The position numbers and the translations under genes are program-made. From Megasphaera vaginalis (ex Bordigoni et al. 2020) (GTDB lineage Bacteria; Bacillota; Negativicutes; Veillonellales; Megasphaeraceae): 64,000 nt of DNA. Positions within the stretch are counted from its first letter, which is position 1. Every line of letters begins with the position of its first letter. The notes under the pieces are model-generated. The model was given only the letters and a program-made list of their open reading frames with translations. It did not search any database and was not told where the DNA came from. Location of the stretch: NCBI RefSeq assembly GCF_900240295.1, contig NZ_OEQB01000008.1, positions 43,528 through 107,527 of the forward strand, read 5' to 3'. Positions 9,325 to 40,280 of this stretch are shown one piece after another.

Positions 9325-10509
9325 TTATTTGATCCGTTCGACGATGCAAGCCGTACCCTGGCCGCCGCCGATGCAGAGTGTAGCCAAACCATAAGTGCCG
9401 TCAACTTCCTGGAGACCGTAGAGAAGTGTAACGAGAATACGGGCGCCAGATGCACCGATCGGGTGTCCGATCGCAATAGCACCGCCATGGATGTTGACTT
9501 TATTCATGTCAAGACCGAGCTCACGGCAGCAATATACAGCCTGTGCTGCAAAGGCTTCGTTTGCTTCGATAAGATCGAGTTTGTCGCCTGTCAAGCCGGC
9601 TTTTTCAAGGGCTTTGCGGGAAGAGGGAACGGGGCCTGTACCCATGATAGCGGGATCAACGCCGGCAGAAGCGTAGCTTACGATTTTGGCAAGCGGCTTA
9701 ATGCCGAGTTCTTTGGCTTTGTCAGCAGACATGACGACAAATGCGGCAGCGCCGTCGTTGATGCCGGAAGCGTTACCTGCCGTAACCGTGCCGCCGTCTT
9801 TTTTGAATGCCGGTTTTAATTTGGCGAGACCTTCGACTGTTGTGCCTTCGCGAGGGAATTCGTCCGTATCAACGATAATGTCGCCTTTTTTGCCGTGAAT
9901 GACGACGGGAACGATCTGCGTTTTGAATGCGCCGCTCTTAATGGCTTCACAAGCTCTGACCTGCGAACGGCAGCCCAAAGCATCTTGATCTTCGCGGGTT
10001 ACATTAAAGCGTTCGGCAACGTTTTCTGCCGTCATACCCATGTGATATTGATTGAAAGCGTCCCATAAGCCGTCTTTAATCATTTCATCAACGAATTTGC
10101 TGTCGCCCATACGATAGCCCCAACGAGCTTTTTGTACGAGATACGGAGCCATCGACATGTTTTCCATGCCGCCTGCTACGATAATATCAGCGTCACCGGC
10201 TTTGATCATCTGTGCTGCCAACGATACGCAACGAAGACCGGATCCGCAAACTTTGTTAATTGTCATGGCCGGGGTTTCGATGGAAAGACCGGCTTTGATC
10301 ATTGCCTGACGAGCAGGATTCTGTCCGAGGCCTGCCTGGAGAACATTGCCCATTACGACTTCTTCAACGGCTTCCTTCTGGATACCGGCCCGTTTGATTG
10401 CTTCTTCAATAACGACAGCGCCGAGATCTACGGCAGGAACGTCTTTGAAAGCTCCGCCATATTTACCAACAGCTGTACGGCAAGCGCTTGCGATTACTAC
10501 TTCTTTCAT
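9325..10509 (-). CDS. thlA: Acetyl-CoA C-acetyltransferase (thiolase)
   Basis: The 394-residue protein matches the biosynthetic thiolase family, which condenses two acetyl-CoA to acetoacetyl-CoA, the entry step to butyrate and longer fatty acids in these fermenters. Catalytic residues are visible: the acyl-accepting Cys88 in [10 protein letters not shown], His in [11 protein letters not shown] near residue 350, and Cys in [10 protein letters not shown] near 380, plus [16 protein letters not shown] precedes the ATG. It stands alone between its terminator and an intergenic region without other fatty-acid genes, so beta-oxidation-type partners must be elsewhere. Confidence 0.95.
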
Positions 10510-10787
10510 CTCATAACCACCCTTTCTGAATGCGAAAATAAATTAGGTATACTTTTTCATACAGTAGATGAATCTGCTGTTTCAAACATGAATATGATCG
10601 GACAATCCGGTAACGTCATAAATTCAGCAACTGCTGTAAAATATGAGTTCCAAATTTCACAATCTCTACATACATATAGTATATTTTTTCACAAAGAAAA
10701 GCAAGAGGAAAAAGGAGATATTCCTATGCTGATTAGTCATTGAATGATAAGATGCAAGGCGTAAAAAGAATGCTTAAATTTGGACTG
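10510..10787. other. Thiolase upstream region
   Basis: This 278-base AT-rich interval should hold the minus-strand thiolase promoter, but I find no clear -35/-10 pair. A small inverted repeat (ACAGTAGAT / ATCTGCTGT) at 10561-10580 lies about 55 bases before the thiolase start and could be an operator. No gene is supported here. Confidence 0.35.
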
Positions 10788-10881
10788 GCCGAAAAAGGGA
10801 AAAATAAAAGCAGCAGTTCCTCTTATCGAAGATATGGTTCATAAAAATCTCGATATCGATAAGAGTAGGACTGCTGCTTTT
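10788..10881 (-). terminator. Terminator of the tandem small-peptide operon
   Basis: A long stem pairs AAAAGCAGCAGT (10806-10817) with ACTGCTGCTTTT (10870-10881) and continues inward with TCTTATCGA / TCGATAAGA. Reading on the minus strand it is followed by a T-rich run (TTTTATTTTTCCCTTTTT), as expected for a terminator 18 bases after the last small ORF. Confidence 0.75.
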
Positions 10882-10898: not shown

Positions 10899-10982
10899 TT
10901 AGAACATATTAACGATGAAGCTGTAGCTCATCAGAATGCCGAGGGAAATAATCAACTTGAAATTTCCGTTTAAACCGCTCAT
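10899..10982 (-). CDS. 27-residue hydrophobic peptide, copy 1
   Basis: A 28-codon ORF with a perfect ribosome binding site (AAAGGAG, eight bases before the ATG). The peptide begins MSGLNGNFKL, continues through a hydrophobic core containing ISLGILMSYSF, and ends IVNMF, which would span a membrane once. It shares 20 of 27 residues with the ORF 60 bases upstream, and in 14 of those 20 the codons differ only silently. That pattern indicates selection on the protein. It lies second in a two-gene unit followed by a terminator. Function unknown. Type I toxin peptides and small subunits of membrane complexes have similar size and character, but nothing here decides between them. Confidence 0.75.
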   Translation of the reverse strand: MSGLNGNFKLIISLGILMSYSFIVNMF

Positions 10983-11042
10983 AGGGAAAGCTCCTTTCTG
11001 TCTGTAAATGCAATTAAATGAATATTCATAAGCTTAATTACT

Positions 11043-11126
11043 TTATAGCATATTGACAACAAAACTATAACTCATTAAGATTCCGAGTGATATAACTAAT
11101 TTTACGTTTTCATTTAACTGTGTCAT
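11043..11126 (-). CDS. 27-residue hydrophobic peptide, copy 2
   Basis: A 28-codon ORF with GAGGTGA seven bases before its ATG. The peptide begins MTQLNENVKL, carries ISLGILMSYSF unchanged, and ends VVNML. It has the same length as copy 1 and no gap in alignment. Non-identical positions are mostly conservative (Ile/Val, Phe/Val, Phe/Leu) or lie in the polar N-terminus. Copy 2 is AT-richer at third positions than copy 1, so the duplication is old. The pair sits alone between the thiolase and an unrelated plus-strand operon. Confidence 0.75.
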   Translation of the reverse strand: MTQLNENVKLVISLGILMSYSFVVNML

Positions 11127-11170
11127 TGTATGGTCACCTCTTCGTGATACAAATTCGAGATACATATGAT

Positions 11171-11269
11171 TTATAGTAAACAGATAGATAAAACAAAATC
11201 TAAAACGTTTAATCTATCTAAAATCATAATAGCACTAGCCATAAAAAATACAATAGGCATCTTAGGCAT
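11171..11269 (-). CDS. Possible 32-residue hydrophobic ORF
   Basis: A short minus-strand ORF (begins MPKMPIVFFMASAIM, ends VLSICLL) lies 44 bases before peptide copy 2. It is hydrophobic but has no good ribosome binding site, and a 13-bp inverted repeat (11182-11219) runs through it. It could instead be part of the promoter or leader of the peptide operon. Confidence 0.2.
   Translation of the reverse strand: MPKMPIVFFMASAIMILDRLNVLDFVLSICLL
11182..11219. repeat. Inverted repeat upstream of the small-peptide operon
   Basis: AGATAGATAAAAC and GTTTAATCTATCT form 13-base arms with one mismatch around a 12-base centre, 56 bases before the first peptide start. It could be an operator or a 5' leader hairpin. 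Confidence 0.45.
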
Positions 11270-11543: not shown

Positions 11544-12149
11544 ATGGGGTTTTTAGATGCCTTTTATCAGAATAAACCGGCCGAATCGGGAAGCGATAAG
11601 ATTTATAATCGCGCTTATCGGCTTTTTAATTCGCCGGAAGAGCAAAACCAATTGTTGCCGGAGAACATCAGAAATGCTTTGTTACAAGGACGAAACTGCG
11701 ATGAAATAGATGGTAGCGGCGAATTTGGCAAGGTCCCGACCAATCCGATTCCCGTTAACGGGAGCTTTGGAGAATGGAGTTATTTATCCAAGTTGCGGTT
11801 AGCCGATACCGGCGGTCGGCTTTTTTTTCATAAAGTCCGCACAATCGGTGATGTAGATGTGTTTGTCGTCGTTAGCGGCAGCGGCAAACATGCTGCCCTT
11901 TTATATTTTGATCCCGGACATCCAAGGCCGTCGGGCTATTGCCCTGAAGGGTATATCCTGGAACGGGAGGCTGTTTTTCCGCGCGGTATTACCACTACGT
12001 ATCCGGAGTTCCCAAAAGGATTGTACGGGCGCATCAAGAAGGAAGCAAAACAGCGGCTCCATGTCGACATTGCCGAAAAAGAAGCGAAACAGATCGCCGT
12101 TGCTGAAGTCCGGAAGGCGTTGCGTCAGTTAAAGGGGTACGAATCATGA
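11544..12149 (+). CDS. Conserved-looking protein of unknown function
   Basis: The 201-residue soluble protein has no signal peptide or membrane segment. A central block (NPIPVNGSFGEWSYLSKLR followed by LFFHKVRTIGDVDVFVVV) has the look of a conserved alpha/beta domain, and the C-terminus is a charged Lys/Ala/Glu helix. AAGGAG lies seven bases before the ATG. It is first in a probable operon with a TVP38-type membrane protein (stop and start overlap as ATGA), a dGTPase-like protein and a DUF1653 protein. I cannot assign a function. Confidence 0.8.
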   Translation: MGFLDAFYQNKPAESGSDKIYNRAYRLFNSPEEQNQLLPENIRNALLQGRNCDEIDGSGEFGKVPTNPIPVNGSFGEWSYLSKLRLADTGGRLFFHKVRTIGDVDVFVVVSGSGKHAALLYFDPGHPRPSGYCPEGYILEREAVFPRGITTTYPEFPKGLYGRIKKEAKQRLHVDIAEKEAKQIAVAEVRKALRQLKGYES

Positions 12150-27640: not shown

Positions 27641-27830
27641 AAGAGAAAACCCTACTGTGTGCGTAAATGGTCTCGATGTTTTGAACCAACACTTCATACA
27701 TTGGGAGTCCGGGCTCTATTGCGGTAAAACAATGCCTTTTGCGGGACTGTTGAACCTCATAGGAGGACACCCACCTGCTTAGGCAGGCTCAAAACTCGGT
27801 TTATAAACGGCATGGTGGGGCTCTTTTTCT
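27641..27830 (+). ncRNA. ssrS: Probable 6S RNA
   Basis: About 190 bases, the usual size of 6S RNA, behind a promoter and ending in CTCTTTTTCTT. The ends pair (AAGAG with CTCTT, CCCTAC with GTGGGG), giving the long closing stem. Near-symmetric internal elements GTTTTGAACCAACAC (27678 on) and GTTGAACCTC (27749 on) flank the central region, as in Clostridia/Negativicutes 6S RNAs. No ORF with a ribosome binding site lies inside. 6S RNA mimics an open promoter and binds the housekeeping RNA polymerase in stationary phase. Identification is from memory of the consensus, not a covariance search. Confidence 0.7.
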
Positions 27831-39859: not shown

Positions 39860-39936
39860 GGCCCCGTGGTGTAGCGGTTTAACATGTCGCCCTGTCACGG
39901 CGAAGATCGTCAGTTCAAATCTGATCGGGGTCGCCA
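39860..39936 (+). tRNA. tRNA-Asp (GTC)
   Basis: A complete cloverleaf with acceptor GGCCCCG/CGGGGTC, anticodon GTC in loop CTGTCAC, T arm with TTCAAAT, and an encoded CCA. Confidence 0.97.
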
Positions 39937-39940
39937 TTTT

Positions 39941-40016
39941 GCTCAGGTAGCTCAGTCGGTAGAGCAGGGGACTGAAAATCCCCGTGTCGGCGGTTCAATT
40001 CCGTCCCTGAGCACCA
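39941..40016 (+). tRNA. tRNA-Phe (GAA)
   Basis: Acceptor GCTCAGG/CCTGAGC, anticodon stem GGGGA/TCCCC with loop CTGAAAA (anticodon GAA), T loop TTCAATT, encoded CCA. Confidence 0.97.
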
Positions 40017-40021
40017 ATCAT

Positions 40022-40096
40022 GCGGAAGTAGCTCAGTGGTAGAGCACCACCTTGCCAAGGTGGGGGTCGCGAGTTCGAGCCTCGTTTTCCGCTCCA
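40022..40096 (+). tRNA. tRNA-Gly (GCC)
   Basis: Acceptor GCGGAAG/TTTCCGC with a G-U pair, anticodon stem CACCT/AGGTG with anticodon GCC, T loop TTCGAGC, encoded CCA. Confidence 0.97.
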
Positions 40097-40102
40097 TAGT
40101 AT

Positions 40103-40176
40103 GGCGGCATAGCCAAGCGGTAAGGCAGAGGTCTGCAAAACCTTCATCCCCAGTTCGATTCTGGGTGCCGCCTCCA
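40103..40176 (+). tRNA. tRNA-Cys (GCA)
   Basis: Acceptor GGCGGCA/TGCCGCC, anticodon GCA in loop CTGCAAA, T loop TTCGATT, encoded CCA. Confidence 0.97.
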
Positions 40177-40191
40177 TAGTTTTTCTGTCAT

Positions 40192-40280
40192 GCCGAGGTG
40201 GCGGAACTGGCAGACGCAACGGACTTAAAATCCGTCGGATAGAAATATCCGTACCGGTTCGATTCCGGTCCCCGGCACCA
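40192..40280 (+). tRNA. tRNA-Leu (TAA)
   Basis: Class II tRNA with long variable arm (TCGGATAGAAATATCCG region), anticodon TAA, acceptor GCCGAGG/CCCCGGC, encoded CCA. Confidence 0.97.

Follow-up and report, generated by a model that had tools for sequence, protein, structure and literature searches.

In a 64,000-nucleotide stretch of the Megasphaera vaginalis genome (hereafter the window), two 27-residue open reading frames (ORFs) lying in tandem on the minus strand are very probably, to judge from sequence conservation, real genes of a small-protein family restricted to the genus. The explanation that we favor, held tentatively and at a shade under even confidence, is that they are tandem copies of a genus-conserved small-protein gene, whose predicted single-pass helices likely bind and tune a larger inner-membrane protein. 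The downstream ORF (10899..10982; MSGLNGNFKLIISLGILMSYSFIVNMF), with profile relatives in 11 other genomes of the genus, follows a Shine-Dalgarno (SD) sequence AGGAG at 10991-10995, 8 nt 5' of its ATG, and the upstream ORF (11043..11126; MTQLNENVKLVISLGILMSYSFVVNML) follows GAGGTGA at 11134-11140, 7 nt 5' of its ATG. Each consists of 27 codons plus a stop, and at 84 nt including the stop is shorter than the 90 nt that gene callers usually require; 60 bases separate the two. An alternative ATG at 11165 would extend the product of the upstream ORF to 40 aa, and the added residues had no counterpart in the relatives read. The coordinates and SD sequences were re-read and agree with the first-pass annotation, which had described two minus-strand ORFs with a 60-base spacer and an excellent ribosome binding site at 7-8 bases in front of each; likewise, recomputing its gapless alignment returned the same 20 of 27 identical residues, 14 of these 20 being encoded by different codons. 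At E <= 10, the two ORFs were the only matches in the window's own genome. The window genome and genome G004 do carry the gene in tandem, as does an IMG/VR relative of the latter, whereas the other 11 of the 13 carrier genomes have a single copy, which makes knock-out and pull-down direct.

The substitution pattern is that of a protein kept while its codons drift. Over the last 24 codons of the window pair, we counted 23 differences, distributed 5/1/17 over codon positions 1/2/3 (pN/pS 0.08); 5.5 of the 23 changes were non-synonymous (6 used in the test), and the departure from neutrality was significant with the neutral non-synonymous share set at 0.8 (p ~4e-8). When five copy pairs chosen by us (two tandem pairs and three between-species pairs) were pooled, the differences by codon position were 25/6/63 and pN/pS was 0.13 (0.03 to 0.24 for the individual pairs), with 29 of 94 changes non-synonymous relative to ~78% expected under neutrality (p = 3e-22). 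In all 105 pairwise comparisons among 15 copies, pS averaged 0.77 and pN 0.29, and many of the pairs had reached saturation at synonymous sites. The first-pass annotation had proposed purifying selection and had named a dN/dS near 1 among copies and the lack of homologues outside the strain among the results that would speak against it; the pooled ratio of the five pairs lies far from 1, and the peptide was found in 13 of the 15 genus genomes. In the comparison of G002 with G010, identity per 30 nt was 0.87 across the ORF relative to 0.43-0.67 immediately around it, with some upstream blocks at 0.77-0.87, and in G012-G013 and G008-G003 the ORF did not stand out from its surroundings by raw identity.

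The family was traced through the genus with several profiles. The 13 carriers among the 15 genus genomes searched include the window genome; profile matches account for 11 of the 14 other genomes, and a copy in G005 raises this to 12 of 14. In the 15 genus genomes, a two-row profile of the window pair matched nine other genomes at E values between 2.5e-15 (G008) and 5e-4, and more weakly G012 (E 0.0105) and G013 (E 0.38), both of which were accepted on synteny and residue pattern. The G005 copy, a diverged 27-aa ORF (MVSLHPYIKFMIGVILLLAYPFVVNQW) with an SD at the same place, was missed by the two-row and 12-row profiles. The 12-row profile, which contains sequences of the matched genus members themselves, matched 12 of 380 class genomes at E <= 2e-12 (G000, G002-G004 and G006-G013, the window's own included), and its next best match (E 0.0028) fell inside a 123-aa frame. 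In G001, G014 and the sister-genus genomes G346 and G347, no peptide was found near the 201-aa gene that otherwise neighbors it or upstream of thiolase in the 8 thiolase loci scanned out of the 10 that these genomes have, and a 14-row profile returned nothing or weak partial matches in these four genomes. Outside the genus, no match was accepted among the 380 class genomes or 398 phylum genomes. In the phylum set, good matches came from three genus members, and four other genomes gave E values of 4e-4 to 0.004; the best of these four lay opposite a 617-aa frame and the other three in frames of 141-669 aa, and all were rejected. Weak out-of-genus matches were read out at 16 loci and at another 7 loci, an eighth in the latter set being the G005 copy itself. 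Sixteen loci checked for overlapping frames each lay across a longer one of 215-699 aa, and nine of them (L066, L067, L071, L074-L077, L079 and probably L073) resemble, in our reading, flagellin-like genes read from the opposite strand. When 84,980 species genomes were scanned with a pattern, the only hits were a Megasphaera record and one chance match, and this silence means little, since the scan also missed most of the known carriers; the Pelagibacteraceae match from the scan (L043) was rejected, sharing only the first ~11 residues.

In 12 of the 13 carriers the peptide gene sits between a divergent gene for a 201-aa protein of unassigned function (11544..12149 in the window, plus strand) and a same-strand thiolase (acetyl-CoA C-acyltransferase) gene (9325..10509, minus strand), and this one place in the chromosome speaks for a fixed cellular role. 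The exception is G004, in which the genes next to the pair encode class-V aminotransferase, tRNA_Me_trans and LepA domains and a thiolase is found ~4 kb away on the other strand. Genomes in which the peptide was not found also contain the neighboring genes. The 201-aa protein matched nothing in Pfam or NCBIfam, and its gene was present in all 17 family genomes, with or without the peptide, and in none of 44 others of the order; by this distribution it is not an obligate partner. As to the intergenic sequences, an AT-rich block in the interval that separates the 201-aa gene from the peptide promoter (~8297-8357 of L050, from G002) had an identity of 0.77-0.87 per 30 nt between G002 and G010, with similar blocks in G012-G013 and G008-G003 and low identity in G000-G008. 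The thiolase gene has a conserved upstream region of its own, with a block around TTGTGAAAAAATGTACTATAT at ~10640-10700 of the window (minus strand), and two TTGTGAA direct repeats 31-32 nt apart in 8 of 12 loci, which suggests a shared regulator of the thiolase gene. In G006, the thiolase copy nearest the peptide (L052, 6301-7496) appears split into two overlapping frames, perhaps an assembly frameshift.

The gene also appears to be bounded by its own transcription signals. A promoter-like sequence, TTGTAT-N16-TATTAT (11226..11253, minus strand), was placed by alignment and hand-picked anchors, and many relatives have TTGATT-N16/17-TATTAT or a similar sequence; the predicted RNA would start at ~11219 in the window, and 44-103 nt 5' of the first ATG across the loci with these hand-picked anchors. 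In a consensus promoter scan, some relatives reached 9 of 12 matching positions and the window's own promoter fell below this threshold, and when 8 genomes were searched with the upstream promoter motif, its only matches were at this locus, in 4 of them. Downstream of the last stop, a terminator-like hairpin with a T-run (10800..10881, minus strand) folded at -31.8 kcal/mol (z -4.7), and none of 200 shuffles was as stable, which agrees with the strong terminator of the first-pass annotation. Hairpins of this kind followed the last stop in all 13 carrier loci, as assessed by eye and by folding; a consensus scan returned no terminator, probably as the loop of the fold is longer than the 8 nt that the scan allows. 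With a promoter-like sequence on one side and a terminator-like hairpin on the other, the peptide gene likely yields its own short RNA. The 5' end of this RNA is predicted to form a hairpin (11182..11219, minus strand; AGATAGAT...ATCTATCT) with z -4.6 in the window, below -3 in G000, G003, G009, G012 and G013, between -1.4 and -2.3 in G002, G004, G006 and G008, weak in G007, G010 and G011, and absent in G005; it is a candidate shared RNA element that is uneven among relatives. Rfam returned nothing meaningful.

The peptides are 24-27 aa long and read as a polar N-terminus followed by one membrane helix, predicted from hydropathy per column. In a 13-row alignment, every row has K9, L17 and F22 and either Tyr or Phe at position 20, positions 13, 15, 19 and 21 hold small residues in 13, 12, 13 and 12 rows, respectively, and Asn7 is conserved in the N-terminal part along with Lys9. 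Hydrophobic residues run from position 10 to the C-terminus, no row has Lys or Arg after position 9, and the net charge read from the sequences is ~0 to +2. Helical periodicity of conservation over residues 10-24 was not significant (p = 0.77), so that a single conserved helix face is not supported. The profile of the peptide matched no PDB sequence, and the 14 aligned members had no match in NCBIfam or PADLOC; PHROG 15806 (5 of 14 members matched, best E 0.015), which itself found no peptide locus in 380 genomes, and Pfam PF12729 (2 of 14 members, best E 0.092) were dropped. Judged by the titles and abstract openings among the matches listed, no report of the peptide was found in the literature. 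This adds a strongly selected protein family of 24-27 aa, from an anaerobe genus, that is absent from the family libraries searched.

In the favored reading, the polar N-terminus with its invariant Lys9 would precede a membrane helix over residues 10-27, and the small residues at 13, 15, 19 and 21, together with Leu17 and Phe22, would let this helix pack against a partner helix or, alternatively, let the helices of two copies pack against each other; once bound, the helix would tune the activity or stability of a larger inner-membrane protein. We infer such packing from the residue pattern and from a review on small membrane proteins (PMC11539335), which describes characterized bacterial examples as primarily regulators that join larger complexes. 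Coding conservation, spread through the genus, the fixed position in 12 of 13 carriers and the terminator-like hairpin were all counted in favor of a regulator, and counted against it were the lack of significant helical periodicity, by which a one-sided binding face is not shown, the neighboring genes in genomes where the peptide was not found, the ATA at the G011 start and a start codon predicted to be paired in 9 of 13 loci, a folding result suggestive of the strict control of translation seen in some toxins. A small regulator of a membrane complex, one of the functions proposed in the first-pass annotation, is the best remaining reading, although no partner was seen. Its broader claim of a membrane peptide family stands as to the family, with 13 of 15 genus genomes and the pooled ratio behind it, and the membrane location is a prediction. 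A search for a partner gene identified none, and the presence of the peptide did not follow that of KdpA or CydA. CydX-type and KdpF-type subunits have ~30 residues and one helix and are alike to the peptide in both respects. A CydX identity was rejected, as none of 17 family genomes matched cytochrome bd (CydA, PF01654), versus 10 of 14 controls, and so was KdpF, as KdpA scored above cut-off in 5 of 17 family genomes (G000, G001, G012, G346 and G347), only 2 of which are carriers; 11 genomes have the peptide without KdpA, and it was not found in three that have KdpA. AcrZ, MgtS, MgrB, KdpF and Prli42, named in PMC11539335, resemble the peptide in being tiny, with one predicted membrane helix and a gene of their own; no sequence relation to them was found in Pfam, NCBIfam or PDB sequences, and unlike these regulators the peptide was seen in one genus only and in tandem in two lineages. 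As a further step, mixed helix pairs of the tandem 27-mers, joined at their small-residue positions, might form a two-part switch, particular to the genus, that sets the activity of a membrane complex peculiar to Megasphaera-type fermentation; we regard this as rather improbable, and were it true, few conserved pairs of regulatory proteins in bacteria would be smaller.

The alternative that survives best, unlikely as we judge it, is that the peptide is a type I toxin, a membrane-damaging peptide that antisense RNA and folding of its messenger would keep silent. According to a review (PMC8309996), membrane type I toxins are hydrophobic and shorter than 60 aa, have a putative helix and generally carry their cationic residues at the C-terminus. 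Antisense RNA controls them and, for some, so does a ribosome binding site that is hidden in the messenger. The peptide is like them in size, hydrophobicity and its one predicted helix, and the tandem copies in two lineages would also fit. Start codons point the same way: their mean unpaired probability was 0.20 at the 13 peptide loci versus 0.49 at 25 control starts (those of the 201-aa gene and thiolases), and it was below 0.2 at 9 of 13 versus 4 of 25, for loci that are related rather than independent and folds that vary with the stretch chosen. The SD region, however, was paired much as in the controls (unpaired probability 0.43 vs 0.46). Within the upstream ORF of the window, an antisense promoter matches the consensus at 10 of 12 positions, yet such matches lack a genus-wide position: none reached 9 of 12 in 6 of the 13 loci, a shared place was found only in G012/G013 and G007/G011, and promoter matches in the region were at chance level (5 found vs 5.4 expected). 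Moreover, unlike membrane type I toxins, the peptide carries no Lys or Arg after residue 9 and hence no C-terminal cationic residues, a trait that the review calls general and that is therefore not absolute, and it is mostly a single-copy, syntenic chromosomal gene (11 of 13 carriers). The upstream copy had no match in phage or plasmid records, and PADLOC returned none. The toxin suggestion of the first-pass annotation accordingly drew weak support, with size, hydrophobicity and the paired start codon speaking for it and antisense promoters, charge and copy number against.

A signaling or pheromone-like role, in which the hydrophobic C-terminal part would be cut out and exported, appears quite improbable. 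A Lys followed by a hydrophobic stretch does resemble a signal peptide with nothing after it, and the C-terminal part is well conserved, but the N-terminal Asn7 and Lys9 are conserved too, and the two fixed neighbors, a thiolase and a protein without a Pfam match, are not a known regulator or exporter. We consider an antimicrobial or bacteriocin-like peptide directed at neighboring cells very unlikely: it would agree with a small, hydrophobic product that is tandem in places, and is opposed by the net charge of ~0 to +2, by the slow evolution of the protein and by the finding that no immunity or export gene was recognized among the scanned neighbors. That the ORF is a leader peptide controlling the downstream thiolase gene by attenuation is suggested by its place upstream of a same-strand thiolase in 12 of 13 carriers, from which a hairpin separates it; we give this little credence, as the thiolase has a separate conserved upstream block (identity per 30 nt of 0.80 in G008-G003 and 0.80-0.97 in G002-G010), the G004 pair is relocated with its nearest thiolase on the other strand, and synonymous codons drift freely. 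Chance ORFs within a non-coding RNA or untranslated region can be practically dismissed, for although the G011 copy lacks an ATG, the codon-position pattern with a pN/pS of 0.13, the SD-like purine stretches 5' of the start and the profile matches in 12 genomes all oppose them.

That G011 copy (L047, G011:C24:36932-37006) has ATA at the start-codon position, perhaps a start loss, a rare start or an assembly error, in a genome that is 82% complete. The edge of IMG/VR contig L110 (1-5260) holds the tandem pair of a G004-like strain beside genes that we read as prophage-like, perhaps reflecting a prophage integrated next to the peptide gene. Elsewhere in the window, a 6S RNA lies at 27646-27825 (plus strand) and five tRNA genes lie at 39860-40277.
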